Origin: Leifsonia xyli subsp. cynodontis DSM 46306
GTDB taxonomy: Bacteria; Actinomycetota; Actinomycetes; Actinomycetales; Microbacteriaceae
Direction of reading: 5' to 3'
DNA length: 64,000 nucleotides
Assembly: GCF_000470775.1 (NCBI RefSeq)
Contig: NC_022438.1
Coordinates: 1,550,001 to 1,614,000 of the forward strand
The notes below the pieces were generated by a model, which searched no databases, was not told the DNA's origin, and worked only from the letters and a program-made list of their open reading frames with translations. How positions within the stretch are numbered: the first letter of the stretch is position 1; each line of letters starts with the position of its first letter. Of the stretch, positions 38,087 to 54,950 are shown piece after piece. The translations under genes and the position numbers were made by a program.

Positions 38087-38293
38087 TTCGCGCGATCCCG
38101 GGAGAGATGTCCTCCGTTTACTGGGAACGTAAATGGTAGGGTGTTTTGTGGGGTGGGGGCGTGTTAGTTAATGGGTCTGAGATCCCCGGATTTATGCGGA
38201 AGTGATGGTCTTCGGGGGGTGCATCTGCAAACATAGTTTTTGCGGTTGTATGTGGGGACTTATGTGGGTACCTGGTGAGAATGGTGGGGAGTG

Positions 38294-39600
38294 ATGCCGA
38301 AGAAGCGGTCGCCGGGTGAGGGCGGTCTGCACTATGACAGGGCAAAGGGCCTGTGGCGTGGGCGGTATGACGACGGCTTCCACCCTGATGGTCGCCGCCG
38401 GCAGCGTGAGGTGTCGGCGCGGACGCAAACTGTCGCGCGTGAGAGGTTGAAGCAGAAGCTTGCGGAGATCGCGGAGTACGGTACGACCTTGGATCGCACG
38501 GTGACTGTTGCGGCATGGGCTGAGCACTATGTCGAGACCGATTGTCGGATGAGGCTGAAGCCGAACTCACTCGCGACTACAGAGTCTCTGATGCGCAACT
38601 GGATCGTTCCTCTCCTTGGTCGTCGCCGGATCTCGGAGCTGAAACCGTCGGATGTTCGCCTGGTGCATAAGGCCGTCTTCGATGCTGGCCTCGCGACGAG
38701 CACCGCGCGTAAGGCGCATGAGATTCTCATGCGGCATGCTCAGCGCCGCGAAGGCCGACGGGCTTGTGACGCGCAACGTCGTGGACGACGTGAAGCCTCC
38801 GGAGGTCATCGCGAAGAACCCTCGCGGTAGCCTGACCACCGAGCAGGCGCTCGCCGTGCTCGCCGCATCCGCGAACGTGGAGGGCACCCGCTGGTGGGTG
38901 GCGGTGCTCGATGGCATCCGTCAGTCCGAACGACTCGGAGCCCTGATCGAGGGCCTGGATCTTGACGCGGGGACTCTGCGCGTGGACTGGCAGCTTGAGG
39001 AGCTGCGCTCCGAGCACGGTTGCGAGCCACTCGCGGACGGACGGTGGTCGTGTCTGACCAAGCGCGGCTCGTCATGCCCCCAACGCCGGTTCAAGGTGAA
39101 ACCCTCCCTGGAGTACATCCACCTGTATGGGAGGCTGGCTCTGATCCGACCGAAGTCGGGAAAATCGCGCACGGTTCCTCTCATCCCGCCCGTGGTCGCG
39201 GTCCTACGTGAATACCTTGAGGCGACGAAAGACCGCCCGAACCCCTACGGCCTGCTATGGCGGCACGAAGACGGGCGCCCCTACCTCCCGCACGAGGATC
39301 AGCAGCTGTGGCGCGACTTGCTGTTCCGAGCTGGTGTCATCAGCCAGGAACAGACGAAACCACCGAAAGACCGAGCACCCGGGACACCCGGTATCCCAAC
39401 CACACACTGGGCGCGACACACCACCGCGACCGCGCTAATGGAACTCGGCATCGACGCGAAAATCGTGGGAGAGATCGTCGGCCACGTCGACGAGAAAACC
39501 CACCCGCCGCTACCAACACGTCTCCTCCCCCGCCGCCCGCGACGCAATGGAACGCCTAGGCACCCACTTCAAAGACGCACTCCACCCGCCCACAAATTGA
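38294..39600 (+). pseudogene. int: Phage tyrosine integrase, broken by two +1 frameshifts
   Basis: Site-specific recombinase that would integrate the prophage. An AP2-like N-terminal arm region (KGLWRGRYDDGFHPDGRRRQ) and SAM-like core-binding domain run in the first frame to 38731. A +1 at about 38732-38735 moves to the second frame (LSAAKADGLVTRNVVDDV through HWARHTTATALMELG, with GHVDEKT). A second +1 at 39499-39501 restores the third frame with the catalytic Tyr in RRYQHVSS (Tyr codon 39511-39513). Correcting both gives about 434 residues. Either the gene is dead or two bases are sequencing errors. Confidence 0.85.
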
Positions 39601-39745
39601 CAGCCCGACCACGAAACAACACAAGCCAGCATGTCCAAGAAGCGGCTATGCGGTCGGGTGAGTAGTAGCCGAAAACCTCATCGTCGAGGTAGGTGCCGTG
39701 GACCTGCACCCCCATCCCTGCCGAGAGGAGCATGAGTTGCCGCAT
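39569..39745 (-). pseudogene. Possible 5' remnant of an ImmA/IrrE-type metallopeptidase
   Basis: Immediately downstream of the repressor, an ATG at 39745 (AGGAAAG upstream) opens a 58-codon frame. Its first 33 residues (MGVQVHGTYLDDEVFGYYSP region) look like the start of ImmA-type phage peptidases, which cleave repressors and normally follow the cI gene. The expected HExxH part is absent and the frame ends inside the 3' end of the integrase. I infer a deletion that fused integrase and a truncated immA. The family call is weak. Confidence 0.35.
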
Positions 39746-39754: not shown

Positions 39755-40249
39755 TCACTCGGCGTAGGGCTGATCCGCCTTGCGTCTTCCACGCTTCGCC
39801 ACGAGCGGCAGGCTCTTCGCCGACGGGTCCTCATATGAAACCTGAAAATCCCCATCCACGTGGCCTTTGAAATGTTCTGTATGCATATTCATGCGAGCGA
39901 GGGTGGACCTTCCCCACGCATCAAGCATGTCATTGGTCCAGGTGCGGGGCTTCGGTAGCTTGCGCTGCTCGTCGACATAGGAGATTGGCGAACTGTACTC
40001 GTCAGAAGTCATAAGGAATGAGTCGATCTCCATCATGAAGGCACCGAAATCCTGGCCCAGGGCTTCAAGAACCACGGCAACTTGGTCAATGCTCATTGGG
40101 CGCACGCCGCGGATCAATTTGGAGAACTGGCTCTGGGAGACATTGCAAATGAGCGCTAATTCTTCTTGGTTGATGTCGTACCGAGCAATCAGACCGCGCA
40201 ACCGGGATGTGATCTCAATTGCATACTGAGTCGGGGAATAGTCAGCCAT
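39755..40249 (-). CDS. cI-type XRE-family phage repressor
   Basis: 164 residues with an N-terminal helix-turn-helix (about 14-70: YDINQEELALICNVSQSQFS, then KLIRGVRPMSIDQVAVVLEALG) and a C-terminal region of unknown fold ending RRKADQPYAE. It is divergent from the 86-residue HTH gene at 40327 and next to the integrase, the standard place for the lysogeny repressor. The spacer between the two carries dyads. This is the leftmost of five divergent HTH pairs. Confidence 0.82.
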   Translation of the reverse strand: MADYSPTQYAIEITSRLRGLIARYDINQEELALICNVSQSQFSKLIRGVRPMSIDQVAVVLEALGQDFGAFMMEIDSFLMTSDEYSSPISYVDEQRKLPKPRTWTNDMLDAWGRSTLARMNMHTEHFKGHVDGDFQVSYEDPSAKSLPLVAKRGRRKADQPYAE

Positions 40250-40263
40250 AGCTCCATGGTGTC

Positions 40264-40326
40264 AGATTTGAACCGAAATCTCGAAATCTATTGCTCCTAC
40301 AGTTCTCTTGAACTAATTTAGACCGT
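40264..40326 (+). promoter_or_regulatory. Divergent operator/promoter region, pair 1
   Basis: Dyad AGATTT (40264-40269) with AAATCT (40276-40281), a second AAATCT just after, and dyad AGTTC (40301-40305) with GAACT (40310-40314). Rightward promoter TTGCTC (40291-40296), 17-bp spacer, TAATTT (40314-40319), then 7 nt to the ATG at 40327, so a leaderless transcript is likely. The second dyad lies within the promoter spacer, as expected for a repressor site. Confidence 0.6.
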
Positions 40327-40587
40327 ATGAACTACGAAGCTTGGAGCAGCAAGGCCATTCGCGCCATTCGCGCCATTCGCGCCATTCTCGCCGAACGAAA
40401 CGAGTCGATCGAGAGCCTGTCCGAGAACACGGGAATAGCTCTTTCGACCTTGAAGCGGAGGCTCAAGGGAACCACTCCTTTCACTGTCGACGAAATCGGC
40501 ATGATCGCAGACTACTTCACCCTGCCGTTCACCGCGGTGCTCACGCCGATTACCGAACGCCCTCTGGCAAACCGGTACGCGGCCTAG
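40327..40587 (+). CDS. Small Cro-like HTH protein, pair 1
   Basis: 86 residues with a helix-turn-helix (ESIESLSENTGIALSTLKRR) followed by the block PFTVDEIGMIADYFTLP that recurs, diverged, in the other small HTH proteins of this region. The N-terminal segment contains AIRAIRAIRAIL, coded by a 9-bp DNA repeat. Divergent from cI and followed by an antirepressor gene, so a Cro-like role is inferred. Confidence 0.75.
   Translation: MNYEAWSSKAIRAIRAIRAILAERNESIESLSENTGIALSTLKRRLKGTTPFTVDEIGMIADYFTLPFTAVLTPITERPLANRYAA
40354..40389 (+). repeat. Four 9-bp tandem repeats inside the Cro-like gene
   Basis: GCCATTCGC three times and GCCATTCTC once, in frame, encoding Ala-Ile-Arg repeats. In-frame 9-bp units allow slippage without frameshift. 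Confidence 0.8.
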
Positions 40588-40620
40588 CGGCGATCTCTTG
40601 TGAGGCAGAGAGAAGGAAGC

Positions 40621-41397
40621 ATGACGGAGCTGGTCCGTGTCCCCTTTCGCGGCGGAGAAGTACTTGCTGTTGACATTGATGGTAAGCCATTCGTCGCGCT
40701 GCGGCCGGCGTTCGAAGTGATCGGGCTCGACCCCGACAAGCAGATCAAGAAGATACAAGCGCGTTCATGGGCCTGCACCTCCGTTACGGCCGTACAGCTC
40801 CCCGGAAGCAGCCAGCACCGGAACATAGTCGTAAGCGACGTGCGAACCTTCCTGATGGCACTGGCGGCAATCCCGGATTCTCGCGTGAAGCCTGAGGTGC
40901 GTGACCTCCTGATCGCCTATCAGGCGGAGGTAGCGGATGTTATCGAAGCGTACTGGACCAATGGTGGCGCTGTGAATCCGCGTGCTTCCCAGGAGCAGCT
41001 TTCAAGCCTGGTGTCGCTCGCGAAGGGCCAAATGGCTGTTCTGGAATTGGGGCGAAATATCCTCCCCCGTGAATGGCTGGAGGCAAAGGCGAAGATCGTT
41101 GCGGCGCGAGCCCTGGGTGAGACACCTCAGATCAGTTCTGACGACCTTCCGCTCTATGTTGAGGACTTCCTGCGTCAGCGTGGACTGGACGCTACACGAG
41201 TCAAGGCGATTCGATCCCCGTTCGGGCGGCGTCTCTCGACAAAGTACCGCGAGAAGCACGGTCGCCCGCCCGAGAAGACACCGGCGGAAGTTGGCGGCCG
41301 TCCGAGGCAGGTGAACGTGTATTACGGCCGGGATCGGCCGCTTTTCGAGGTGACGTGGGCCGAGCACTTTGCCCCAGTTTTCGAGGATGCGTCATGA
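40621..41397 (+). CDS. Phage antirepressor with P22 Ant-like N-terminal domain
   Basis: Binds and inactivates repressors in related phages. From the ATG at 40621 (AGAAGGA ribosome site) there are 258 residues. The N-terminal domain has the antirepressor pattern (VLAVDIDGKPFVALRPAFEV, then GLDPDKQIKKIQARSWACTS and VVSDVRTFLMAL), with PEVRDLLIAYQAEVADVI following. The C-terminal part carries a basic stretch near PFGRRLSTKYREKHGRPP. The stop overlaps the next gene (ATGA). Confidence 0.8.
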   Translation: MTELVRVPFRGGEVLAVDIDGKPFVALRPAFEVIGLDPDKQIKKIQARSWACTSVTAVQLPGSSQHRNIVVSDVRTFLMALAAIPDSRVKPEVRDLLIAYQAEVADVIEAYWTNGGAVNPRASQEQLSSLVSLAKGQMAVLELGRNILPREWLEAKAKIVAARALGETPQISSDDLPLYVEDFLRQRGLDATRVKAIRSPFGRRLSTKYREKHGRPPEKTPAEVGGRPRQVNVYYGRDRPLFEVTWAEHFAPVFEDAS

Positions 41398-41609
41398 CGC
41401 TTCGTATCGAGTTCGCGCCCGCGTTGATGACGCGGGAGATCGCCGCGTACTACATCGACGGCACCCTTCGAGACATCGACGACCTACGAGCAAAAGGCGA
41501 ACTGACCCCCGTCGGTGGCCAGAAACGGATCAAGTTCCGCAAGACCGACTTAGACCATTACATCGCAGCTCTTGAAGAACGCGACCTCATCAAAGAACGG
41601 TCGCACTAA
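41394..41609 (+). CDS. xis: Excisionase-like small HTH protein
   Basis: 71 residues from the ATG overlapping the antirepressor stop. It has a MerR/excisionase-like layout: MTREIAAYYIDGTLRDID helix-turn-helix, then RIKFRKTDLDHYIAALEE, the wing and following helix seen in phage Xis-like proteins. The placement with the early rightward genes supports a recombination-directionality or regulatory role. A helicase-loader or other HTH function cannot be excluded. Confidence 0.65.
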   Translation: MTLRIEFAPALMTREIAAYYIDGTLRDIDDLRAKGELTPVGGQKRIKFRKTDLDHYIAALEERDLIKERSH

Positions 41610-41728
41610 GCCACACCCGACCCGCCTCACCCCCTCACATCAGCCCCCCGGCCTGTTGGGCCGATTAAGGAAGGAGCAGCAATGCATACAGCTGACAGGC
41701 AGCGGTCTCAGTGAAGGGGCTCCAGTAG
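41610..41728 (+). other. Gap with a hairpin and a 10-codon minigene
   Basis: A small stem (CGGCC at 41649 with GGCCG at 41659) is followed by AAGGAAGGAG and ATG at 41682. The ATG opens a 10-codon frame ending TGA at 41712-41714. The ribosome site is stronger than those of most neighbours, so a leader peptide is conceivable, but a decayed gene start is equally likely. Nothing else is seen in this stretch. Confidence 0.25.
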
Positions 41729-41977
41729 TCAGTGGGGCTGATCTACTCGACGACTTGCCCTGTCCATGACTTCTTGAGGCTCTACGCCTAGAGCTTTCGA
41801 GATGTGATAGAGGGCCGGGATGGGGATTTCCCGCTGCCCGTTGAGGTATCGGAGCAGCGTTCCTTTGACCATTCCGGCGTTGTTGGCGAGTTGGTCCACG
41901 GTGAGACGTTTGGCCCCTCGTTCGGCGCGGAGTTCCGCCGCCACGGCGTCGTTGAACTCATTTCCAATGGTTACCAT
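41729..41977 (-). CDS. XRE-family HTH repressor-like protein, pair 2
   Basis: 82 residues from the ATG at 41977 (a TTG three codons earlier is possible). Clear XRE helix-turn-helix: KRLTVDQLANNAGMVKGTLLRYLNG, then IPIPALYHISKALGVEPQEVM. Divergent from the HTH gene at 42072. No ribosome site is visible, but TAGATT lies 7 nt before the ATG, which suggests a leaderless message. Confidence 0.78.
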   Translation of the reverse strand: MVTIGNEFNDAVAAELRAERGAKRLTVDQLANNAGMVKGTLLRYLNGQREIPIPALYHISKALGVEPQEVMDRASRRVDQPH

Positions 41978-42036
41978 ACGATCCAATCTAGTACACTATC
42001 GGTCTCTATTGGTAGCCAAATTGATTCTTTTCCACA

Positions 42037-42071
42037 TTGACAATCTCCAAATGGAGACCTAGGGTAGGCAC
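42037..42071 (+). promoter_or_regulatory. Leaderless promoter with operator palindrome, pair 2
   Basis: TTGACA (42037-42042), 17-bp spacer, TAGGGT (42060-42065), then 6 nt to the ATG at 42072. Inside the spacer is TCTCCA-aa-TGGAGA (42044-42057), a perfect 6-bp dyad placed to block RNA polymerase. Further left are TAGT-ac-ACTA and TTGG-tag-CCAA dyads within the same 94 bp divergent spacer. Confidence 0.7.
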
Positions 42072-42305
42072 ATGGTTACTATATCGATCACTGAAGAGGT
42101 CGCGTACAGAGTGGCCGCGATGATCACCAGACAGGGGATGAAGAAGAACTACATCGCCAAAGCGGTAGGGATCCCGCCGACCACCTTCAAACGAAAGATA
42201 GACGGCTTCACCGACTTCACCGTGTCTGAAATCGACCGCATAGCGCGTGTTCTGGGAATCGCGCCGGCAGAGTTGCTACCTCAGTCGATGAGGACGGCCG
42301 CGTGA
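42072..42305 (+). CDS. Small Cro-like HTH protein, pair 2
   Basis: 77 residues with KKNYIAKAVGIPPTTFKRKI (helix-turn-helix), then FTVSEIDRIARVLGIAPAELL, clearly related to the 40327, 42709 and 44382 products. It ends RTAA, and its coding end is GGCCGCGTGA, the same 10 bp that ends the other plus-strand partners. Convergent with the minus-strand HTH gene at 42328. Confidence 0.75.
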   Translation: MVTISITEEVAYRVAAMITRQGMKKNYIAKAVGIPPTTFKRKIDGFTDFTVSEIDRIARVLGIAPAELLPQSMRTAA

Positions 42306-42327
42306 CTGGGAAGGAACGCGTTATGAA

Positions 42328-42621
42328 TCACATCCTATTCGGTGTGTCAGTGGGCGGTGGTGCCAAGTCGCCTCTAGGGGCTGAGGCAGCTCGACGCATC
42401 AGTTCGAACGGGTTCATGTGGAGAACGTCCGCAAGTTGTCCGATGTCGTTTGTATTGAACGGCATCTCTCCGCGAAGACGTTTGTAGTAATAGTTCCGAG
42501 ACATGCCTGCTGCACCGTAGATAGCGGATGCGGTCCGCGAATCCATCCCGATAGCACGATCGATCTCCTCTGCGACTCTCCTGCTGAAATCGTTAGCTTC
42601 GCCGACTGCCCTCTTGACCAC
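42328..42621 (-). CDS. Small HTH repressor-like protein, pair 3
   Basis: 97 residues (GTG start at 42621). The helix-turn-helix is SAIYGAAGMSRNYYYKRLRG, followed by PFNTNDIGQLADVLHMNPFELM and a proline-rich tail. The tail is encoded by the 26-bp repeat 42337-42362. Divergent from 42709. The GTG lies 6 nt from a TACTAT -10 box, so it is probably leaderless. Confidence 0.75.
   Translation of the reverse strand: MVKRAVGEANDFSRRVAEEIDRAIGMDSRTASAIYGAAGMSRNYYYKRLRGEMPFNTNDIGQLADVLHMNPFELMRRAASAPRGDLAPPPTDTPNRM
42337..42362. repeat. 26-bp module-boundary repeat, copy A (copy C at 44001-44026)
   Basis: The sequence beginning ATTCGGTGTGTCAGTGGGCG and ending GTGGTG is identical at 42337-42362 and 44001-44026, and diverged at 42992-43017. 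Each copy lies just after the shared GGCCGCGTGA end of a plus-strand HTH gene and covers the 3' end of the facing minus-strand gene. It therefore marks the joint between neighbouring modules. Confidence 0.75.
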
Positions 42622-42636
42622 GGGTACATAGTACCC
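42622..42636 (-). promoter_or_regulatory. Operator palindrome over the leftward promoter, pair 3
   Basis: GGGTAC-ata-GTACCC, a perfect 15-bp dyad that begins at the base next to the GTG start of the 42328-42621 gene. Read leftward it contains TACTAT (42633-42628), then 6 nt to the GTG, so the operator, -10 box and start codon are superimposed. Confidence 0.65.
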
Positions 42637-42673
42637 ATCTGAGGGAAGATTACAAAATTTGTATCCAACTAGG

Positions 42674-42708
42674 TTGCATTATTGGCCCCGACTAGGTACT
42701 CTCATCGC
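42674..42708 (+). promoter_or_regulatory. Leaderless rightward promoter, pair 3
   Basis: TTGCAT (42674-42679), 17-bp spacer, TACTCT (42697-42702), then 6 nt to the ATG at 42709. A direct repeat ACTAGGT occurs at 42668-42674 and 42691-42697, overlapping the -35 and -10 boxes, and is a candidate operator. Confidence 0.65.
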
Positions 42709-42987
42709 ATGGAACCGGACATTACAGAGCAGATTACGCGGGCAGTCAAAGCCGAGTTAGCCCGTCGTGACCTCGATGGTGTGGATCTTGTCCCAGTGCT
42801 CGGGATGGGGAGGAACGCCGTGTACTCGAGGCTCCGACACGAGCGAGCTTTCGACATGGCTGAGCTTTCGAAGATCACGGTTTTCATGGGAATAACGATG
42901 AATGATCTGCTCGATTCCGCCCAGTACGGACTCCGGATCGCGGAGCGTGCGACGGGAGAGTACGTGCGGACGGAGATGGCCGCGTGA
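42709..42987 (+). CDS. Small Cro-like HTH protein, pair 3
   Basis: 92 residues. Helix-turn-helix region around LDGVDLVPVLGMGRNAVYSR, then FDMAELSKITVFMGITMNDLL. The last 14 residues, ERATGEYVRTEMAA, are identical to the end of the 43646 product, and the DNA identity continues past the stop, indicating recombination. The start is fixed by the promoter 6 nt upstream. Confidence 0.75.
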   Translation: MEPDITEQITRAVKAELARRDLDGVDLVPVLGMGRNAVYSRLRHERAFDMAELSKITVFMGITMNDLLDSAQYGLRIAERATGEYVRTEMAA

Positions 42988-43019
42988 TCCCGTTTGGTGT
43001 TTCAGCGAGCGGCGGCGTG
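42940..43019 (+). repeat. 80-bp direct repeat, copy 1 (copy 2 at 43949-44028)
   Basis: The 3' end of the pair-3 plus gene and the following noncoding DNA match 43949-44028 at about 72 of 80 positions, the first 53 with a single mismatch. The copies are 1009 bp apart and enclose exactly one module (43002-44028). This is the size expected for gain or loss of a module by homologous recombination. Confidence 0.8.
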
Positions 43020-43166
43020 TCTTGTTTCGGCCGCGAATCTCTCCTCGGCTCGTGCCACCACGACGTGAGGGTCGATTCCGAAGCTCTCGCAGACCCTATA
43101 GGCGATGGGGAGTTCCCTCGGATTAGTCAGGGTTGCCTGCGGGGACTTGTCCGATTGGTCCGGTTA
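43002..43166 (-). pseudogene. Decayed C-terminal fragment of a minus-strand HTH gene
   Basis: A stop-to-stop frame with no start codon reads LPIAYRVCESFGIDPHVVVA, then RAEERFAAETRHAAAR, the typical tail of a small phage HTH protein. Its stop lies in the module-boundary repeat, at the same relative place as the stop of the 44011 gene. It overlaps the end of the 43123 gene in another frame. I infer that the N-terminal part of an older repressor was replaced. Confidence 0.45.
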
Positions 43167-43500
43167 GATTGGGGTGGTTATGCTCGGCGGCGCGAACGCG
43201 CCGCAGGATTTCCTCAGCGAGTTCGCGGTCACTCGCCTTCTCGATGCCTGCGAGGGTGGCCATGTTGGATGCCTCATCGGCGGTTATGAACCCCGCGGCA
43301 ACGAACGCCTGAAGCAGACTGCCACCATAAGCGCGCGTGATCGACACTACGGCTTGGACCTTCAGCTCTCCTTTTAGCTGACGAGTAAGCGTACTTGGTT
43401 CGATTTGGGCGCGTTGAGCAATCGTGCGGTAGCTGGCGTTGTTGGTAAGTCGCTTCAGGTACTCGTCGAAGGTTTCATCCACGATTCCATTTTGATGCAT
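43123..43500 (-). CDS. HTH repressor-like protein, pair 4
   Basis: 125 residues from the ATG at 43500. A GTG at 43482 is equally plausible because it lies 6 nt from CAAAAT with TTGACA 18 bp further up. Helix-turn-helix: ASYRTIAQRAQIEPSTLTRQ, then a long C-terminal part with an acidic helix (KASDRELAEEILRRVRAAE). Divergent from 43646. Confidence 0.7.
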   Translation of the reverse strand: MHQNGIVDETFDEYLKRLTNNASYRTIAQRAQIEPSTLTRQLKGELKVQAVVSITRAYGGSLLQAFVAAGFITADEASNMATLAGIEKASDRELAEEILRRVRAAEHNHPNLTGPIGQVPAGNPD

Positions 43501-43618
43501 GTTTGCATCATCTGTCAACCGGATCGCCCAGTGATCTGGAGGTGATGCTGTGCGGAATCGCATCATCTAGATTATTACCATTGCAATTTTGTACCAAACT
43601 GGTGCATACTCGCATCAT
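43494..43618. promoter_or_regulatory. Operator repeats in the divergent spacer, pair 4
   Basis: Dyad GATGCA-tgtt-TGCATC (43494-43509) and three copies of GCATCAT at 43505-43511, 43560-43566 and 43612-43618. ACCA-aac-TGGT lies within the rightward promoter. Rightward promoter candidate: TTGCAA near 43581, 18-bp spacer, CATACT ending near 43610. Different sites from those of the other pairs, so each pair should recognise its own DNA. Confidence 0.55.
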
Positions 43619-43645
43619 TCAAGTTTGTGAAGAGGGGGTGCCAGG

Positions 43646-43996
43646 ATGGCATCGAGAGTACGGATCAAGCCGGGACTGCTCAAGCGGCTTCGCGATATTA
43701 GGGAGATCCCAAGCGAGGATCACCAGGCCCGCTTGATGGGGTTCGACCGCACAACGCTTCGCCGTATCGACGCCGGTGGTGTCCCGTCCGCCGCATTCAT
43801 GGCAGCCATGTGGGAAACCTTCGGCCTCGGTCTCGGCGAGGCATTCGAGTTCGTCGAGAACGAGTCGCTGTGCAAAACAGAGCGGGACGTTGAGACCGGG
43901 ATGGTAGCTACTGAGCTGGGGATGACGGCATCCGAGATCGTGGCGCGGGCGGAGCGCGCGACGGGAGAGTACGTGCGGACGGAGATGGCCGCGTGA
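43646..43996 (+). CDS. HTH protein, pair 4 (chimeric C-terminus)
   Basis: 116 residues preceded by GAGGGGG. The N-terminal half (LLKRLRDIREIPSEDHQARL, then MGFDRTTLRRIDAGG) is a helix-turn-helix. The C-terminal half ends SEIVARAERATGEYVRTEMAA-like sequence, identical in its last 14 residues to the 42709 product. The N-terminal part differs from the other plus-strand partners, so this looks like a different repressor family captured onto a shared tail. Confidence 0.7.
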   Translation: MASRVRIKPGLLKRLRDIREIPSEDHQARLMGFDRTTLRRIDAGGVPSAAFMAAMWETFGLGLGEAFEFVENESLCKTERDVETGMVATELGMTASEIVARAERATGEYVRTEMAA

Positions 43997-44028
43997 TCCC
44001 ATTCGGTGTGTCAGTGGGCGGTGGTGTT
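43949..44028 (+). repeat. 80-bp direct repeat, copy 2
   Basis: Counterpart of 42940-43019. It covers the end of the 43646 gene, the stop and the joint sequence that also encodes the end of the 44011 gene on the other strand. Confidence 0.8.
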
Positions 44029-44331
44029 CCATTCATCGGAAGCGGCGAGAGCATGGTCGGCTCGCGCGTCTCGAACGAACTGATAGGGACTCACGTTGAA
44101 GACTTCCGCAGCGATCGCTATGTCATTGGTGTTCATCGCTACCTCGCCGGCGATGATCGATGCCCAGTAACCCTTACCGCGGTCTGTGCGTGCGGCGAGC
44201 CACCGTCCGGACGAATCGCCTCCGGCGCGCAGCACCAGGAGCTCGAGGTGTTCACTGAGTTCACGGGCGAAGGCGCCGGCGGGTCGGTTCACGCTTGCGG
44301 ACACAGCATCAGAGTACACAAGTGTGGGCAT
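44011..44331 (-). CDS. Small HTH repressor-like protein, pair 5
   Basis: 106 residues from the ATG at 44331, or 97 from a GTG at 44304 that lies 6 nt from TACTCT with CTTACA 17 bp further up. The region DSSGRWLAARTDRGKGYWAS followed by AMNTNDIAIAAEVFNVSPYQFV matches the pattern of the 42328 product (NTNDI shared). Divergent from 44382; its stop is in the module-boundary repeat. Confidence 0.7.
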   Translation of the reverse strand: MPTLVYSDAVSASVNRPAGAFARELSEHLELLVLRAGGDSSGRWLAARTDRGKGYWASIIAGEVAMNTNDIAIAAEVFNVSPYQFVRDARADHALAASDEWNTTAH

Positions 44332-44346
44332 GTTGTAAGAACCGAC

Positions 44347-44400
44347 TTGACACTGACCACAACTATGGACATCATGGGGGTATGACCACAGTTATGGACA
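44347..44400 (+). promoter_or_regulatory. Leaderless promoter and operator direct repeat, pair 5
   Basis: TTGACA (44347-44352), 17-bp spacer, CATCAT (44370-44375), then 6 nt to the ATG at 44382. ACCACAACTATGGACA (44356-44371) recurs as ACCACAGTTATGGACA (44385-44400), one copy in the promoter and one over the first codons, with 29 bp between equivalent positions. An ACAC-aa-GTGT dyad lies near 44317-44326. Confidence 0.65.
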
Positions 44401-44654
44401 CATATAGCTCCACTATTGCCGGAGCGGTTCGGGCCGTGCTTGGTCACTCGAAGAAGAGCATCTCCGGGCTGGCGATGTTCCTCGACTTGAGCCGAGAGAC
44501 AGCATCGTCTCGCGTAAACGGGTCGTCGGTGTTCAACGTCAACGAACTGGAGATGACGGCGCGTTTTCTCGGAATCACCGTTGACGACCTGAATGAGCTC
44601 GCCGATCTGTTCCACCGCATTGAATGCCGCAATGAGAAGAGGGTGGCCGCGTGA
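44382..44654 (+). CDS. Small Cro-like HTH protein, pair 5
   Basis: 90 residues: KKSISGLAMFLDLSRETASS helix-turn-helix, then FNVNELEMTARFLGITVDDLN, the same family as the 40327, 42072 and 42709 products. It ends RVAA with the coding end GGCCGCGTGA shared by the other modules. The start is fixed by the promoter 6 nt upstream. Confidence 0.75.
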   Translation: MTTVMDTYSSTIAGAVRAVLGHSKKSISGLAMFLDLSRETASSRVNGSSVFNVNELEMTARFLGITVDDLNELADLFHRIECRNEKRVAA

Positions 44655-44668: not shown

Positions 44669-45286
44669 TCAGTTGACGTCGATGTGGAGTTCGCGGGTGT
44701 GTGGGAGGCCGAGGCTGCTCTTGCAGCGGACGGTGACTTTCAGGCTGGTGTGGAAACCGCTGCCGAAATAGGTGAAGCCGGCGTTGCGGAGTTGCTCGCG
44801 GGCGGCGAGCTGCTCGGCGGCGTGCCTCGAACGTTGATCCGGGATCTGCGGAAGCGGGACGCTGATCTGCTCGCCGGGAGGGATGTCGTGGTGCCCGTCG
44901 ACACGGTTGTGAAGATCGTTACCCGCAACAGTGACGGACGGTTCCAGAGCCGGGTGGCTGCCCGTGTTCTTGAGGGTGAGGACAGCTTTCTCTTCGTCCC
45001 ATTGGGGATCCCAATCTACGAACCAGTCCTCTTCCTGCTGCGCCACACTGCGCCCGGTGATCGTGTTCGCCTGCTCGCTGAGCTGGTTCGCGTGTTCGGC
45101 GATGTCGTTCGCTTTGCGCGCCTCCCCGAGAGCGTCCACGGCAATGCGGTTCGCGGTCTCGGCTTTCTCGTCGGCCTCCTTCGCACGGCGGTTGCCCTTC
45201 ACACCGAAAACCACACCCGTCACACCAGCCATGAGAGCGACGACGACACCGGCCCAGGCTGCGATGTCACCAAACCCGACCGTCAT
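44669..45286 (-). CDS. Membrane-anchored coiled-coil protein of unknown function
   Basis: 205 residues: one N-terminal membrane segment (about 8-29, AAWAGVVVALMAGVTGVVFG), a basic stop (KGNRRAKE), a coiled coil (about 34-80) and a beta-rich C-terminal domain (about 88-205) with WFVDWDPQWDEEKAVLTLKN. No family recognised. It is a lone leftward gene at the end of the HTH array. TAGGCT lies 6 nt before the ATG, so it is probably leaderless and expressed separately from the lytic operon, as lysogenic-conversion or superinfection-exclusion genes are. Confidence 0.7.
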   Translation of the reverse strand: MTVGFGDIAAWAGVVVALMAGVTGVVFGVKGNRRAKEADEKAETANRIAVDALGEARKANDIAEHANQLSEQANTITGRSVAQQEEDWFVDWDPQWDEEKAVLTLKNTGSHPALEPSVTVAGNDLHNRVDGHHDIPPGEQISVPLPQIPDQRSRHAAEQLAAREQLRNAGFTYFGSGFHTSLKVTVRCKSSLGLPHTRELHIDVN

Positions 45287-45386: not shown

Positions 45387-46167
45387 ATGAACAACACAGA
45401 CATTAGCATCTTCCGTCGCGAGGGGGTAGATCTCCGCGTGATCGTGATCGATGACGAGCCCTGGTTCGTCGCGGCCCGACGTTGCCTGCCTGTTGGGCTA
45501 TCGCGACGCCTACAATCTCACGCGCCGTCTGGAGCCTTCCGAGAAGGGTACTCACCAGATGAGGACCCCTGGCGGACTACAACCGGTCACTCTCATCTCG
45601 GAACCCGGGCTGTACCGCGCCGTCATGCGCAGCGACTCCGCGGCCGCGCTCGACTTCCAGATGTGGGTCCTGCACGATGTCCTCCCCTCGATCCGTCGGA
45701 CGGGTTCGTATGGTGCCCCGGCCGACGATCTCGCTTTGCCGGGTAATTATGTGGAGGCGTTGGAGGCGCTCCTTGTCCGGGAGCGGGCGAATCAGGCGCT
45801 CACGGTGGAGAACGCCCGGTTGGTTCCGCGTGCGGGCGCGTGGGATGCGATCGCGTCGGCGGTGGGTGACTACAGCGTGGGGGATGCGGCGAAGATCCTG
45901 TCCCGGGCGGGGGTTCCGACCGGCCTGCAACGCTTGTTCGCCCAGTTGGAGGACATCCGGTGGGTGTATCGCGGCATGGATGGGAAGTGGCGCGCCTACG
46001 CGGAGCGTGTGGAGAAGGGGTTCCTGGCGGAGAAGGCCCAGTTCCACCACCATCCCGCAACCGGGGAACTGGTGTTGGACGCCCCGCAGGTGCGGGTCAC
46101 CGTGAAAGGCGTGAACAAACTGCGGCAACGTCTCCATGTTGGGGCGCTCACGGCGGTGACCGCATGA
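45387..46167 (+). CDS. Second antirepressor, Bro-N plus KilA-C layout, with a +1 frameshift
   Basis: The first frame gives MNNTDISIFRREGVDLRVIV and DDEPWFVA, a Bro-N start. An extra G at 45473-45474 shifts the frame. Corrected, it continues PDVACLLGYRDAYNLTRRLE, GLYRAVMRSDSAAALDFQMW and VLPSIRRTG (Bro-N), then AWDAIASAVGDYSVGDAAKI and RWVYRGMDGKWRAYAERVEKG (KilA-C/ANT). The corrected length is about 259 residues. Unlike the antirepressor at 40621, this is the Bro/ANT type. Confidence 0.8.
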
Positions 46168-46770: not shown

Positions 46771-46878
46771 ATGGCGGGGGTGCTGGTCCTGGCTGTCGTT
46801 TTCGTCCTGGGGCTGGCGATGACCGCGCTGCTGTGCGGGTGGGTTTTCCTGCCGGTGGGGGTTCGGTCATGGGGATGA
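46771..46878 (+). CDS. Tiny membrane protein
   Basis: 35 residues with GGAAGG just ahead of the ATG. Almost the whole chain is one membrane segment (VLVLAVVFVLGLAMTALLCG). The stop overlaps the next start. Function unknown. Confidence 0.45.
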   Translation: MAGVLVLAVVFVLGLAMTALLCGWVFLPVGVRSWG

Positions 46879-47081
46879 TCAACCTGCGAGCCCCTGTAAC
46901 GGTGCCGGAGTGTGACCCGGTGGTGATGGTGGCCTCGTGTCGGTGGTGCGGTTTCGATGGGGAGGTCACCGCGACCGTTCTGGGCGTGGAGCGGGGGTGG
47001 TCGGCTTGCACGGTCACCTATGGGTTCACCTGCCCGAACGGGTGTGTCAACGAGATCCGCGACGACGGGGGTGGACGGTGA
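46875..47081 (+). CDS. Zinc-ribbon-like small protein
   Basis: 68 residues from the ATGA overlap at 46875 (ATG at 46869 is the alternative). CRWC near residue 22 and CPNGC near residue 58 make a two-knuckle zinc ribbon around a beta segment. Many phage early operons carry such proteins; its partner is unknown. Confidence 0.55.
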   Translation: MINLRAPVTVPECDPVVMVASCRWCGFDGEVTATVLGVERGWSACTVTYGFTCPNGCVNEIRDDGGGR

Positions 47082-47269
47082 ACCGGTGGACCGTGTTCGT
47101 GACCGGTGTTTTCCTCACCGCCGTGGTCCTGGCTTTCACTGCCGCGGTGGCGGGCCTGACCCTGCTGCGCCTGCTGGGCACCGTGATCGCGATCGGCGTG
47201 TTCACTGCCGCGTGCTGGGCGTATGAGGCCCACACGGGAACACGAGAGAGGAGGGAAACCGATGAGTAG
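47078..47269 (+). CDS. Small two-segment membrane protein
   Basis: 63 residues from a GTG overlapping the previous stop. Two hydrophobic stretches (VFVTGVFLTAVVLAFTAAVA and LGTVIAIGVFTAACWAY) with a charged C-terminal tail. Function unknown. Confidence 0.55.
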   Translation: MNRWTVFVTGVFLTAVVLAFTAAVAGLTLLRLLGTVIAIGVFTAACWAYEAHTGTRERRETDE

Positions 47270-47651
47270 CCCAGATGACTATGACGGCAGATACAGCTTT
47301 TTCACGGGCGGGGACGCGGTACAGCGCTGGTTCTCTGATGTGGCTGTTGATCTGCGTTCCTTAGCGGATGTGATCGAGAGGATCAGCGGGTATGACGATG
47401 ACGCCACCCGCACCCGCCGTTACGCCGATATCAGCGTTGATCTCGCGGCAGACACCTGTGGCACCCTCCCGCTCCTTGTCGATCACCTGTACCGACTCCG
47501 CGATGCCCTCTACCGGGACGCGCCGTTGAAGGAGTCCGAGGTCACCGCGGCCGGCGGGGTCTTCGACCTCGCCTTCGGCGGGCGGAATGAGCGTGTTCGC
47601 GCTGGACGCATAACACCCACACCCGTGAACTCAGAGAAGGAAAACCCATGA
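47262..47651 (+). CDS. Phage protein of unknown function
   Basis: 129 residues. The ATG at 47262 follows GGAGGG and overlaps the previous gene by 8 nt. It is helical, with VAVDLRSLADVIERISGYDD and LLVDHLYRLRDALYRDAPLK, and a Gly/Arg-rich end. No family recognised. The stop overlaps the next start (ATGA). Confidence 0.6.
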   Translation: MSSPDDYDGRYSFFTGGDAVQRWFSDVAVDLRSLADVIERISGYDDDATRTRRYADISVDLAADTCGTLPLLVDHLYRLRDALYRDAPLKESEVTAAGGVFDLAFGGRNERVRAGRITPTPVNSEKENP

Positions 47652-47923
47652 TCACGAAATACCTGACCCGGAATAAGAGGATCAACACTCGTGACCACGA
47701 CATCGTGGTCACGGTCAACTGTCGCACGGACTCCTTCGGGCACACATTCCACACCATCGACCTGGCCTTCGACGAGGAGCTGAGCGTCGGCTATGTCTCC
47801 CGGGTCCTGGCTGAACTCGCCGCCCGCCTGTTGGACACCACGGACACAATCCCGCCCGGCCACACGGCCTTCTGTCATGCGCCTGCCGCCCACACCCGTG
47901 AATCAGAGAAGGAGCCGGGATGA
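47648..47923 (+). CDS. Phage protein of unknown function
   Basis: 91 residues, ATGA overlaps at both ends. Mixed alpha/beta composition (IVVTVNCRTDSFGHTFHTID, SVGYVSRVLAELAARLLD) with a short tail PAAHTRESEKEPG. No family recognised. Confidence 0.6.
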   Translation: MITKYLTRNKRINTRDHDIVVTVNCRTDSFGHTFHTIDLAFDEELSVGYVSRVLAELAARLLDTTDTIPPGHTAFCHAPAAHTRESEKEPG

Positions 47924-48015
47924 TCGTGTTCGCGTGTGTGGTCGGGTGGGGTATCGCTGTGGTGTGGGGTGCCGCCGTGGTGTGGGACTGGTTCAGCGGT
48001 CGCGGGGTGGGCTGA
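47920..48015 (+). CDS. Tiny membrane peptide
   Basis: 31 residues, one membrane segment (VFACVVGWGIAVVWGAAVVW). Preceded by GGAGCCGGG, and its ATG and TGA both overlap neighbours. Too short for a family call; supported by context only. Confidence 0.4.
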   Translation: MIVFACVVGWGIAVVWGAAVVWDWFSGRGVG

Positions 48016-48200
48016 TGGACGATGTGATGCGGACGGTTGTGGGCATTGTCTATGGGCCACGGTTCACCGGCCGTGACCTTCCACCACGACCCGGCGGCCG
48101 TAACGACAGTGTGGCTGCTGCTGGTGGTGATCATCGCCGTGACCAGTGGGATGTCGACAACCTCGTCCGCGGGGACGGGATGCCGGAGGGCGCGGCGTGA
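48015..48200 (+). CDS. Small phage protein of unknown function
   Basis: 61 residues, starting in a TGATG overlap and ending in a GTGA overlap with the exonuclease gene. Polar C-terminal half (DHRRDQWDVDNLVRGDGM). An alternative frame over the same DNA has a hydrophobic stretch, but this frame fits the overlap chain. Confidence 0.4.
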   Translation: MDDVMRTVVGIVYGPRFTGRDLPPRPGGRNDSVAAAGGDHRRDQWDVDNLVRGDGMPEGAA

Positions 48201-48796
48201 CTTACTTCGATCGTATCCTCGACGATGGCACGATGCGCGAGCGGTGGCAGGAGGCGCGCTGGCCGGTGGTTGGCGCGTCCGATGCCGCGAAGCTGTCGAA
48301 AGCGTCCTCGCTCCCGTCCTACCTGCGGGGCAAGCTTTCCCGGACGGGCTTCCATGGCAACGACTACACCGCCTCCGGCCACCGGTGGGAGCCGATGATG
48401 CTCGCCTGGGCCGGTATCCCGCAGAACGTCGCGCTCGTCCACGCACCCGACGAGCCCGGGTTCGCTGCGACGCCGGACGGGATCCTTGAGCTGCCAGGCG
48501 GGCGGCTACGGCTGGCGGAGTGTAAGGCGAAGCACGGGCGGATCGTGAACGGTCCGACGCTGCCCGAGTGGCGGCAGCTCGCGTGGCAGTTCCTCGTGTT
48601 TCCCGAGGCCGAGGAGATCGAGTTCGTCTGGGCCGAGATCGTGGGCGGTGAGCTGCGCACGGCCGAGCCGAAGCACCTGACGATCCCGCGGGACCACCCG
48701 AAGATCACGGACCTGACCGCCCATCTCCTCCCTATCGCGACCGAGCTGCTGGCGCAGCTGCGCATCGCGCTCGACTTCGAAAGGCAGCTCGCATGA
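48197..48796 (+). CDS. YqaJ-type viral recombinase exonuclease
   Basis: Lambda-exonuclease-like nuclease that resects DNA ends for annealing. 199 residues from the GTG at 48197. Motifs: VVGASDAAKL (substrate entry), ASGHRWEPMMLAWAG (catalytic Glu), FAATPDGILE (Asp) and LAECKAKHG (E-x-K). The RecT-like gene follows with an ATGA overlap, completing a two-component recombination system. Confidence 0.85.
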   Translation: MTYFDRILDDGTMRERWQEARWPVVGASDAAKLSKASSLPSYLRGKLSRTGFHGNDYTASGHRWEPMMLAWAGIPQNVALVHAPDEPGFAATPDGILELPGGRLRLAECKAKHGRIVNGPTLPEWRQLAWQFLVFPEAEEIEFVWAEIVGGELRTAEPKHLTIPRDHPKITDLTAHLLPIATELLAQLRIALDFERQLA

Positions 48797-49674
48797 CCAG
48801 CACCGCTCTCAAGCCGTATGACTCGGCGTCGCTTCCCGAGCGGCAGCAGTACGCGCAGACCCTCGCAACGGGCGGTGACCTGATCCCGAGGGGTCTGTGG
48901 GCGCAGGTTCGCCAGCCCGACGGCTCGGTGACCCAGGCGCCGTCGCCGGGGAAGGTGCTCCTGGTGATGGAGACCGGCGCGATGCTCGGCCTCCACCCGG
49001 TGGCAGCACTGCAGGGCGTCCACATCATTGAGGGGAAGGCGACGCTCTCACCGGCGCTGATGAGCGCGGTCGTGCGCAAGGCCGGCCACCGCCTCCGGGT
49101 GCGGACGAGTGGGAGCATCGCGGGCGGAGACTTCGCCGCGACCGCATCGCTCACACGCTCCGACGACCCCGACTTCACCTACGAGGCCACCTGGACGACT
49201 GAGCGCGCGACCCGCGCCGGCCTGATGGGCAAGGACGTGTGGAAGAAGTACGCGGAGGCGATGTGCAAGGCCCGTGCGATCTCGGAGGTGTGCCGCGAGG
49301 GCGCGGAGGACGCACTCATGGGCGTGCATTACACCCCGGAGGAGCTCGACACCCCCGTGACCCAGAACGGTGAGGCCGACGTGATCGAGGGCGTACTGGA
49401 GCCGACCGAGGACTGGGCGGCGATGATCAAGGACGCGCAGACGAAGGAAGCCGTCGAGGAGATCGTCGCGAGGGCGAAAGCCGTGGGCGAGTTCACCGAC
49501 CCGGTGCGGACCCTGGCGCTCGCCCGGTACGGCGCGATCGGCCGCGCCGAGGAGAAGACCGTCGAAGCTGAGCCCGTAGCGAACGAGGGCGAGGAGGTCT
49601 CTGAGGAAGAGTACCTGCGTCGCGAGGCAGCAGAGTACGAGGCGGCGGTTGCGCGCGGTGAGGTGCAGCCGTGA
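48793..49674 (+). CDS. recT: RecT-family single-strand annealing protein
   Basis: Pairs with the upstream exonuclease for phage recombination. 293 residues. Family features: ALMSAVVRKAGHRLRV, DFTYEATWTTERATRAGLMG, WKKYAEAMCKARAISEVCRE and the acidic C-terminal tail (GEEVSEEEYLRREAAEYEAA). Starts in an ATGA overlap. Confidence 0.85.
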   Translation: MTSTALKPYDSASLPERQQYAQTLATGGDLIPRGLWAQVRQPDGSVTQAPSPGKVLLVMETGAMLGLHPVAALQGVHIIEGKATLSPALMSAVVRKAGHRLRVRTSGSIAGGDFAATASLTRSDDPDFTYEATWTTERATRAGLMGKDVWKKYAEAMCKARAISEVCREGAEDALMGVHYTPEELDTPVTQNGEADVIEGVLEPTEDWAAMIKDAQTKEAVEEIVARAKAVGEFTDPVRTLALARYGAIGRAEEKTVEAEPVANEGEEVSEEEYLRREAAEYEAAVARGEVQP

Positions 49675-50060
49675 CCGAGCTTGTGCATGCCACGACCGGC
49701 GAGCTGATCGACTACCAGCCGGTCTCGCCGATGGAGATCGAGTTCATCATCCGCGAGATCGGCGAACGGTTGGAGACGGCAGTACCGGTCCTCAAGCAGA
49801 TGTGGCGCGACCGCTACGAAGCCGAACGGGAACTGATCAAAGCGCGCGCGACCGCGATGCTCAACTCCAAGGCCGACTCCGTGACAGAGAAGCGCGCCGA
49901 GGCTGACCTTGCCGCCCTGCCGCACCGGTTGGAGTTCGACCTCAAGAAAGAGGCTCTCCACGCGGCCGAGGAGTTGCAGAAGGCTCTCACGGCGAAGCTC
50001 TACGGCTACCTCAACCTCAACAAGGCGCTCGCGTCGTCGTACAACGCGACCGGCCGCTGA
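49671..50060 (+). CDS. Helical phage protein of unknown function
   Basis: 129 residues from a GTG overlapping the recT stop. Mostly alpha-helical and charged (EIEFIIREIGERLETAVPVL, AERELIKARATAMLN, KKEALHAAEELQKALTAKLY). It always follows the recombination genes in related actinophages as far as I can tell from layout; function unknown. Confidence 0.6.
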   Translation: MTELVHATTGELIDYQPVSPMEIEFIIREIGERLETAVPVLKQMWRDRYEAERELIKARATAMLNSKADSVTEKRAEADLAALPHRLEFDLKKEALHAAEELQKALTAKLYGYLNLNKALASSYNATGR

Positions 50061-50085
50061 AAACCCACCCAGAGAAGGGAACACC

Positions 50086-50532
50086 GTGTCCGATTACCTT
50101 GGCACCCTGGACGGTGCGGTCGCCGATCAGGTCCAGACTGAGGATCTCCGCGAGCTGCCACAGCCGCGTCGCACCCACCGTTCGGCGAGGAAAGCCGGAA
50201 CCGCGTTCGAGTCATCCGTCGCCGCGTATCTCGCCGCCGAGCTCGACGACGACCGGATCGAACGGCGCGCGAAGAACGGTGTCAAAGACCGCGGCGACAT
50301 CACCGGGGTGAAGACGATCCGCGGCGGGCGGGTCGTGATCGAGTGCAAAAACGTGGCCACCCTCGCCCTGCCCGCCTGGCTGCGGGAGGCCGAGACCGAG
50401 GCCGGCAACGACGACGCTGTAATCGGGGTTGTCGTCCACAAACGCCGCGGCGTCGCCGACCCAGCCGAGCAGTTCGTGACCATGACCCTGAACACCCTCG
50501 CCCGTCTCCTGAACGGCGGGGCCGAACTATGA
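50086..50532 (+). CDS. PDDEXK-type nuclease, possible Holliday junction resolvase
   Basis: 148 residues from the GTG at 50086 (GAGAAGGG upstream). The nuclease core is visible as AGTAFESSVAAYLAAE (Glu), KDRGDITGV (Asp), VVIECKNVATL (E-x-K). This pattern fits the restriction-endonuclease fold; similar actinophage proteins are annotated as Holliday junction resolvases. Activity is inferred. Confidence 0.7.
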   Translation: MSDYLGTLDGAVADQVQTEDLRELPQPRRTHRSARKAGTAFESSVAAYLAAELDDDRIERRAKNGVKDRGDITGVKTIRGGRVVIECKNVATLALPAWLREAETEAGNDDAVIGVVVHKRRGVADPAEQFVTMTLNTLARLLNGGAEL

Positions 50533-50852
50533 GCCCCGACACGATTCCCGTCCTCATCGACATCACGGGCAACGAGATCCACATCCTTGAGCTGATCAAT
50601 ACCCCCGTCGGCCTCGCACTCAACGACCGCGGCGTCTACTCGCTGCTCGGCACCGTCCGTGAGGCACAGATCGCCGGGGCGCGCGAGGGGTCGCTGATCA
50701 ACAGCTGGCGGTGGGACTCCGAAGGCTACTCGGGTGAAGCGAAGACGAAAGCCGCCGCCATCGCCGCGATGCTCACCGACACCGGCTATGTCCAAGCGAC
50801 CCTGACCGACACGATCCCCGACCTCCTCGACCACTGGGATGGTGCCGGATGA
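50529..50852 (+). CDS. Phage protein of unknown function
   Basis: 107 residues, ATGA overlaps at both ends. LALNDRGVYSLLGTVREAQI and SLINSWRWDSEGYSGEAKTK are the most distinctive stretches. No family recognised. Confidence 0.55.
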   Translation: MSPDTIPVLIDITGNEIHILELINTPVGLALNDRGVYSLLGTVREAQIAGAREGSLINSWRWDSEGYSGEAKTKAAAIAAMLTDTGYVQATLTDTIPDLLDHWDGAG

Positions 50853-51265
50853 TCCCCGCGACGGTGAAGAAGGCGGTCCTGACCCGCGACGGTGGTGTAT
50901 GCGTTCTGGCGTCGTTCGGGTGTCTCGGTGAGGCGACGGCGTGCGATCACCGCATCGGGCGTGGGATGGGCGGTGGCCGCGGGTTGGATGTGCCGGTGAA
51001 CCTGGTGGCCGCGTGTGTGCTGTGCAACGGCCTGAAAGAGGACGACACCCAGTTCCAACGGGAGTGCGCACGCCGGGGTTTGAAAATCCGCCGCACCCAG
51101 ACCACCACCCAAGACCTGGAGAACGCCGCGCGTATCCCCGTGCAATACCCCGACGGCACCTGGTGGACCCTCACCGGCACCACCAAGCGCCCGCTGCGAG
51201 CGGACGAAGCGAACACCCTGATTACCCGGCACGGGCTCGATCAGAACAGAAGGAAGGCGAGCTGA
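50849..51265 (+). CDS. HNH endonuclease
   Basis: 138 residues. TRDGGVCVLASFGCLGE, ACDHRIGRGMGGG (H-N-H first His) and NLVAACVLCNGLKEDD (Asn and zinc Cys pair) make an HNH finger. It sits in the replication operon rather than by the terminase, so a DNA-processing or homing role is possible. The stop overlaps the next start (TGATG). Confidence 0.8.
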   Translation: MIPATVKKAVLTRDGGVCVLASFGCLGEATACDHRIGRGMGGGRGLDVPVNLVAACVLCNGLKEDDTQFQRECARRGLKIRRTQTTTQDLENAARIPVQYPDGTWWTLTGTTKRPLRADEANTLITRHGLDQNRRKAS

Positions 51266-52035: not shown

Positions 52036-52400
52036 ACATTGATGAGACCGCGAAGGTGTTGGCGAAGATCCAGCTCGGCGACAACCGCCAGATCACTTCG
52101 TTGGTGATCCAGGAGTGGCACGACACCATCGGGGACCTGCCCTATACGGACGCCGTGGAGGCGGTCAGGATGCACCGCCGTGACACGATCGCGTATCTGA
52201 TGCCTGCCCACATTCGAGCCAACGCTCGCGTCCTCCAGCATCGACGCGAACGGGCGCAGCGTATCGCCCGCCCGGGCCTGCCCCGACCGGAGATCACCCT
52301 CGACCGGGAAACATTCGAGGCCGAGACACGGAAGTGGATCGAGCACTACCGCAGGCAGCGAGCAAACGAACCCATCGAGACGGAGGAGGCCACAGCGTGA
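52032..52400 (+). CDS. Possible helicase-loader-like replication protein
   Basis: 122 residues from a GTG overlapping the previous stop. Helical: VLAKIQLGDNRQITSLVIQE, DAVEAVRMHRRDTIAYLMPA and HIRANARVLQHRRERAQRIA. Position after the replication initiator matches phage genes that recruit the host DnaB helicase, but no decisive motif is seen. Confidence 0.5.
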   Translation: MNIDETAKVLAKIQLGDNRQITSLVIQEWHDTIGDLPYTDAVEAVRMHRRDTIAYLMPAHIRANARVLQHRRERAQRIARPGLPRPEITLDRETFEAETRKWIEHYRRQRANEPIETEEATA

Positions 52401-52732: not shown

Positions 52733-52743
52733 GAGAACACCCC

Positions 52744-53172: not shown

Positions 53173-53228
53173 CAGACACCGACCCGCTCCTGGCAGCCGT
53201 CGAGGCGCTGACGAGGGAGACCCGATGA
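53169..53228 (+). CDS. 19-residue minigene
   Basis: MTDTDPLLAAVEALTRETR, overlapping ATGA at both ends. It may be a real micropeptide, or only a translational-coupling bridge to the next gene. Confidence 0.3.
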   Translation: MTDTDPLLAAVEALTRETR

Positions 53229-53890: not shown

Positions 53891-53901
53891 CAGGAGGACG
53901 C

Positions 53902-54150: not shown

Positions 54151-54204
54151 CACTAAGCCGCACTGCCCGCAATCTCGAAGAAGAGGATGGAGAACTCCAC
54201 CCAA

Positions 54205-54247: not shown

Positions 54248-54281
54248 GTGATTCTCTGGGTCCGACTCCTGGAGGTCTCTC

Positions 54282-54885: not shown

Positions 54886-54897
54886 TCCCCCGCGACA

Positions 54898-54930: not shown

Positions 54931-54950
54931 GCGTTCCTCAGGAGAATGAC

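Follow-up and report, generated by a model that had tools for sequence, protein, structure and literature searches.

Five divergent pairs of small helix-turn-helix (HTH) genes, each with the two opposed HTH genes of a CI/Cro-type lysogeny switch, are carried by a single prophage of Leifsonia xyli subsp. cynodontis DSM 46306. The prophage lies in the stretch analysed here, 64,000 nucleotides of contig NC_022438.1 (positions 1,550,001 to 1,614,000, hereafter the window), representing 1.55-1.61 Mb of the 2.69-Mb single-contig genome. Pair 1 is the prophage's own switch, and the remaining four are, on balance, probably captured switches, taken from other phages and stacked beside it to widen superinfection immunity. 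The array may therewith let the prophage block several unrelated viruses at once.

Five divergent pairs and their placement

The ten frames alternate between the leftward and the rightward strand, and are placed between a split tyrosine integrase and the early recombination genes of the prophage (R and C denote the leftward and rightward member of a pair, G000 the genome of the window, G018 that of a sister species, and L numbers other loci). Pair 1 comprises P1R (39755..40249, -; phrog_3, 6e-7), the main-switch repressor, and its Cro-like partner P1C (40327..40587, +; phrog_4583, 2e-12). Next in the array are the repressor P2R (41729..41977, -, with an upstream start that would extend it to 41986; HTH_31, 3e-8) and the Cro-like P2C (42072..42305, +; phrog_4583, 1e-12; C-terminal RTAA), P3R (42328..42621, -; phrog_4583, 6e-5) and P3C (42709..42987, +; phrog_4583, 2e-7), P4R (43123..43500, -, upstream start extending to 43566; phrog_16278, 8e-22) and P4C (43646..43996, +; phrog_9103, 1e-8), and finally P5R (44011..44331, -; phrog_4583, 3.5e-4) and P5C (44382..44654, +; phrog_4583, 2e-10). 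Congruent with the five divergent HTH pairs proposed in the earlier note, every frame is open at these positions, and all ten proteins match an HTH or phage-repressor model of Pfam or PHROGs at E<=1e-3, Pfam's own cut-off being reached only by some (P1C, P2R and P2C). P5R is the weakest of the ten in the profile search; its AlphaFold model has a mean pLDDT of 82, and the top Foldseek matches of this model are ClgR and the N-domain of lambda CI, none at E 0.001 or better. A motif thought to be common to several of the proteins, F(T/N)xxE(L/I)xxIAxxLGI, turned out to be loose, with a good fit to P2C and P5C and a partial one to P1C, P3R and P3C.

Only pair 1 occupies the position beside integrase and ImmA that is typical of an int - ImmA - R/C - xis layout, here with a remnant of ImmA. 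It is followed by a P22-type antirepressor, an excisionase-like gene, pairs 2-5, a leftward membrane/coiled-coil-like gene and a BRO-type antirepressor, and pairs 2-5 are thus found beyond xis and lack ImmA, outside the main-switch position of actinophages. The separation of pair 1 from the rest, also part of the initial description, is borne out by the antirepressor (40621..41397, +; PF10547, 1e-24; phrog_524, 1.5e-32) and the xis-like gene (41394..41609, +; HTH_17, 3e-4, below the Pfam cut-off). The latter short HTH gene is called xis from its place and a 62% match to the gene in xis position of L084. Annotation E-values are generous because the BLAST runs for locus annotation lacked composition correction, and short genes were missed by the home-made gene caller.

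Two features of the proteins themselves may be recorded here. Within P1C a 9-bp unit, GCCATTCGC, is repeated in frame at 40354-40389, yielding the run IRAIRAIRAI, a possible slippage site. Moreover, all five C proteins and none of the five R proteins of the array end in Ala-Ala, an ending that recurs in 13 of the 17 relatives of P4C type and in 5 of the 15 remaining relatives of C proteins. These ends resemble an ssrA-like degradation tag, which would keep Cro short-lived; such tags have been described for mycobacteriophage repressors.

Relatives of the cassettes and the slot that holds them

The proposal that pairs 2-5 were stored from other phages gains from the finding of main-switch relatives for all four types, together with the recurrence of single cassettes in other elements. 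Relatives of P4R and P4C adjoin an integrase, an ImmA-like gene or xis in the family prophages L045, L046, L047, L018 and L051. Twelve P4-type loci were recovered from IMG/VR, and among the 11 mapped with labels an ImmA-like gene adjoins in 10, a labelled integrase in 6 and a labelled P4R in 7. In L084, a P4-type switch is located between an integrase (52%) and a xis (62%) of the window's own type. For cassette 3, relatives form the main switch of the same-genus prophage L017 (P3R 64%, P3C 68%) and of L048 (53% and 54%), while P2R is 52% identical to the immunity repressors of Propionibacterium phages E1 and E6 (for E1 over 67 amino acids) and 40-44% to repressors of Arthrobacter phages Maja, Zucker and Shoya. 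Footloose, L088 and L089 have relatives of P5R and P5C, at 35-37% and 40-45%, that adjoin an ImmA-like gene, with an integrase near the pair in Footloose and L089; Footloose gp34 is annotated merely as an HTH protein. An exception to such placement is L049, where a P2-type pair (60%/41%) has no labelled integrase nearby, and a tblastn search of named phages with P4C gave no match.

Stacks of this kind were not recovered from the sets searched. None of the 27 viral loci mapped (out of 28, L085 being listed unlabelled) has more than two stacked repressor genes. A scan of genome contigs with P3R relatives gave five loci and no array: L094 is a main switch, L095 has P3R-like, C-like and xis-like genes, L097 a lone P3R-like gene and L096 nothing labelled, while L093 coincides in contig and position with L048 (L062, L048 and L093 are one prophage, counted once). 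L065, a viral contig of Arthrobacter type, has two stacked repressors and, beyond its integrase, a third repressor-like gene, which is P4R/Faja52-like (7026-7331; 73% to Faja gp52).

Two of the cassettes recur as units in the sister species. Cassette 3 (677 bp) is 98.7% identical to one cassette of L014 (at 2.45 Mb of G018), and cassette 5 (672 bp) 96.1% identical to that of L015 (at 0.90 Mb), both matches ending at, or no more than 13 bases from, the cassette ends. As a yardstick, 9.9 kb of chromosome beside the window show 93% identity to G018, and stretches of the prophage to the right of the slot 87-94% identity to L014. Using blastn, cores 2, 4 and 5 were not detected in L014, nor cores 2-4 in L015. 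Elsewhere in G000, L016 has xis, the two cassette ends and the integrase (98.9%) in common with the window, and holds a different core.

The cassettes are housed in a slot opened by a leader hairpin with a Shine-Dalgarno sequence (41649..41672, +), of which there are three copies in G000 and two in G018, compared to none for a reversed-pattern control. A divergent HTH cassette follows the leader in all five places, in number four in the window, two in L014 and one each in L015, L016 and L058, the last with an interrupted C gene. Since these five elements in two genomes differ in cassette number and also in their cores, a single conserved gene set in fixed order, which the earlier note had named as contrary to its proposal, is not what is observed. 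Seven of nine left ends read ATCCYRTTYGGTKTNTCAGYG, window cassette 2 and L058 having the leader and a different left end. Similarly, seven of eight right ends read GGCCGCGTGA and the eighth, that of L016, is off by one base (L058 is outside this table). After the cassette stop comes the beginning of a small downstream frame, of which there are several. At junction 2/3 (42306..42362), such a start is joined to the leader/left end of cassette 3. Junctions 3/4 (42985..43017, GTGATCCCGTTTGG) and 4/5 (43994..44026) read GTGATCCCRTTYGG, and there a downstream-frame start of a kind known from L014 has sequence in common with the cassette left end. Join 2/3 and the join within L014 are different. Because the joins differ and share short sequence, the array looks to have been built by accretion through short shared sequences and not by one site-specific enzyme, although no search aimed at an array recombinase was made. 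Compared to integrons, shared cassette ends are present, whereas the differing joins resemble short-homology recombination. Direct searches with the left-end sequence gave no matches in the viral contig set and none in the genome contig set, near genomes being possibly excluded from these sets.

Cassette 4 is a graft into another cassette, as judged from scars on both sides. On the left remains the 3' end of another cassette's repressor gene (43005..43112, -), 36 residues that are 86% identical to residues 67-102 of L014 xBR. On the right, the foreign-type body of P4C passes from about 43904 into a tail of resident-cassette type; the 17 P4C relatives end at 78-89 residues as read, whereas the window protein runs on into this tail. 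The Ala-Ala tail is common to P3C and P4C by descent.

The slot is closed by the leftward membrane/coiled-coil-like gene (44669..45286, -), labelled mainly by eye from weak matches (Alanine_zipper, E 0.01; holin phrog_4237, E 0.001), which, as a guess, could be an exclusion or lysogenic-conversion gene. Downstream of it is the BRO/Ant-type antirepressor (45451..46167, +; phrog_130, 4e-51). The slot-closing regions of L014 (11811-12543) and L015 (8128-8860) are 100% identical over 733 bp.

A second prophage of the same chromosome (G000:C1:2138082-2165526) is a near-twin of the one in the window, matching positions 46876-64000 at 99.988% and extending 10.3 kb further at 99.6-100%, 27.5 kb in all. 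Its immunity region differs, with one HTH pair, no array, and then a BRO-related sequence called as two frames. Near-twin prophages with unlike immunity regions fit an exchange of immunity as a block, while the pattern could also stem from a repeat-assembly error.

Operator-like sites

Each of the five spacers has its own dyad or repeats, as had been claimed, and relatives keep them for pairs 3 and 4. Pair 1 has the dyad AGATTTGAACCGAAATCT (40264..40281), present in one copy in the window at up to two mismatches. The operator-like elements of the cassettes, recognised from sequence only, are the dyad TCTCCAAATGGAGA of pair 2 (42044..42057), the sites GGTACATAGTACC, CCAACTAGGTTGC and CCGACTAGGTAC of pair 3 (42623..42700), the putative operator TGATGCATGTTTGCATCA of pair 4 at the start of P4R (43493..43510), with a second site at two mismatches (43600..43617), and the repeats TGACCACAACTATGGACA and TGACCACAGTTATGGACA of pair 5 (44354..44400).

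To compare pair 4 with its relatives, the 220 bp preceding the C start were scanned in 18 loci for the site closest to TGATGCA-N4-TGCATCA, and its score was set against 300 shuffles (L075, the same prophage as L045, was dropped). The dyad is without mismatch in six loci, namely the window, L051, L076, L078, L082 and L084, and has one mismatch in two loci, two in three, three in six and four in one. For 17 of the 18 loci the score is matched by at most 4% of the shuffles. The best site is 153-161 bp from the C start in 16 loci, the exceptions being L086 (176 bp) and L051 (95 bp, plus a one-mismatch copy at the usual place); a corrected C start was used for L078, placing its site at 157 bp, and that of L079 was set 3 bp short. 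Pair-3 sites are likewise retained, with GGTACANAGTACC, TTGTAYYCAACTAGGTTGCA and CCNACTAGGTAC common to L017, and CCNACTAGGTAC also to L048. Thus, the expectation that relatives would carry the cassettes with matching operators agrees with the data for pairs 3 and 4, while for pair 2 there is resemblance.

Within the window, close matches to the motifs fall only in their own spacers. The pair-4 dyad is found twice at up to two mismatches, both times in its own spacer (0.08 expected), and two further matches elsewhere appear at three mismatches (four in total versus 0.95 expected). A looser pair-2 pattern gives two matches outside its spacer (four in total versus 0.82 expected), and matches to the remaining pair motifs are confined to their own spacers. 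Genome-wide, the pair-3 pattern at one mismatch, beyond the exact cassette site, is below the control in both G000 (12 versus 23) and G018 (10 versus 13). Pair-5 sites at zero or one mismatch occur in these two genomes only in the cassette; the other pair-5 matches, all at three mismatches, number six in G000 and five in G018, against two and one for the control.

Weighing the explanations

What we infer here are the capture of the cassettes, their route of entry, their expression in the lysogen, the binding of foreign operators and immunity. With pair 1 as the single switch of its own, the prophage would have had the slot between xis and the next early genes filled with four cassettes that were formerly main switches of other temperate phages, new ones being brought in through recombination within the conserved ends or at short stretches of common sequence. 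Each cassette would bring its own promoters and operators, so that each R, in the lysogen, would silence the Cro-like promoter of its own pair and, acting in trans, the early promoters of an infecting phage whose operators are of that type. The array would in this way sum the immunities, and the prophage would hold additive immunity to several immunity groups. More tentatively still, and at somewhat less than even chance, the prophage family may keep a dedicated slot that collects repressor/operator cassettes of rival phages, an additive, heritable store of heteroimmunity that is changed by recombination.

Several observations weigh against an immunity store, the strongest doubt being decay. 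The window integrase (38291..39585, +) is split over three frames, as seen by tblastn with two intact relatives (frames 3, 1 and 2 in turn), and ImmA is a remnant (39569..39745, -), of which 32 residues (39656-39745) align with the L089 ImmA-like protein at 44% identity (E 1.6e-6); four further ImmA-like queries gave no significant match to this remnant, nor did Pfam. The element may therefore be decaying. Furthermore, the related G000 cassette L058 is disrupted, having both an insertion and a stop, and such cassettes can therefore be lost. Pair 3 shows no synonymous and four nonsynonymous changes, and is too similar to say anything on selection. As to the operators, in seven of the 18 P4-type loci the pair-4 site takes a different form, with three to four mismatches (TGTAGCA in six, TGTTGCA in one), and in L079 the site is not better than shuffles (matched by 6.7%; p 0.067). 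The pair-4 site reads as one site with at least two putative specificities, the window belonging to the TGATGCA group. A narrow pattern, TGATGCANNTTTGCATCA, occurs only in this genome, one of 398 family genomes, though with its two middle bases fixed it misses an exact dyad with another middle in G147 (L051, among the 398); the site-sharing loci were therefore found via protein and not via the site. Finally, TCTCCAAATGGAGA of pair 2 resembles, without being identical to, ATCCCCAAAYGGGGAT of Zucker and L064, and the pair-5 repeat has no counterpart in the Footloose-type relatives.

Two side observations concern these broken genes. The integrase breaks are the same in the window and in L016 (12885-14179), indicating a shared old break or unusual frame use. 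Moreover, the same 906-bp element (99.9%; transposase-like by eye) is present in two different repressor pairs of G000, at L058:6851-7756 and L060:8054-8959.

Alternatively, the array could be passive debris without present function, deposited behind xis by illegitimate recombination among co-resident prophages. The differing joins, the small downstream frames that are cut short, the broken integrase with its ImmA remnant and the interrupted sister cassette of L058 all point this way, and yet we regard debris as rather unlikely, for ten of ten frames are open, the operator-like sites of pairs 3 and 4 are kept, and pair 5 shows a signature of purifying selection. Compared with L015, the latter has 11 synonymous changes in 146.7 sites and 7 nonsynonymous ones in 441.3 (dN/dS about 0.2; Fisher p 0.001). 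Had a single ancestral pair been duplicated in tandem and its copies then diverged, the shared cassette ends and the weak similarity of some members (P3R-P5R 29%, P3C-P5C 31%) would be accounted for. We reject this origin as highly improbable, because the cores are closer to main switches elsewhere (P3R 64% to L017; P4C 68-72%) than to each other; P4R and P4C match no other pair at E 0.01, except for the P4C tail, and cassette 4 bears the graft scars.

The location of the array, within the early region read rightward, after xis and before the BRO antirepressor, and with two antirepressor genes flanking it, would fit a nested circuit. In such a circuit the cassettes would act serially on the early operon of the prophage itself, such that lytic growth needs the release of several repressors or can be induced by antirepressors of various infecting phages. 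This too appears improbable. The twin prophage has the same downstream genes without the array, the number and type of cassettes vary, and close matches to the operator motifs are absent from other prophage promoters in the window, an outcome that speaks against the staged regulatory circuit also envisaged in the earlier note. A reading of the array as a defence system was discarded after a PADLOC scan, in which seven proteins gave weak, mostly HTH-type matches (the best, at 3e-5, to a control protein).

Arrays of two pairs have precedents. In Propionibacterium freudenreichii phage E6 (PMC5831693; NC_041894), whose main repressor is of the P2R type, the main R/Cro pair is followed by an antirepressor and, downstream, by a second divergent R/Cro pair. 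This is one extra pair versus the four here, and shared cassette ends are not mentioned in the accessible part of that report. In Arthrobacter phages Maja, Zucker and Shoya, a P2R-like repressor adjoins another repressor-like HTH gene, which is P3R-like in the first two, and HTH partners accompany them; in contrast to the window, where the slot after xis has variable content, these are two repressors in a recurring order beside the integrase. For Maja, according to PMC11582879, experimental data on lysogeny have not been reported. Hence the general statement that a temperate phage carries one such pair needs softening, because two-pair phages are in print or in GenBank, and the two-pair arrangement of E6 and Maja is exceeded in the window by four extra pairs. 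Immunity groups in Cluster A mycobacteriophages are defined by repressor and operator specificities (PMC6550527), although the terms 'two repressors' and 'additional repressor' are not in that text.

In the bipartite immunity of P22 (immC/immI) and P1, more than one regulatory region bears on superinfection, the second one governing an antirepressor that the phage itself encodes. In the window, by contrast, whole foreign repressor/Cro switches appear to be stacked. No report of more than two stacked repressor/Cro pairs was found in the open-access literature searched; cases with two switches are known, and this search gave no description of a five-switch stack made of exchangeable units.

Immunity to superinfection is commonly regarded as the work of a single repressor in each phage. 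If the array does consist of captured switches, one prophage would belong to several immunity groups at once, and repressor/operator modules would be the unit of exchange between phages. The operator of each cassette would then name the phages that it should block, which offers a direct test.

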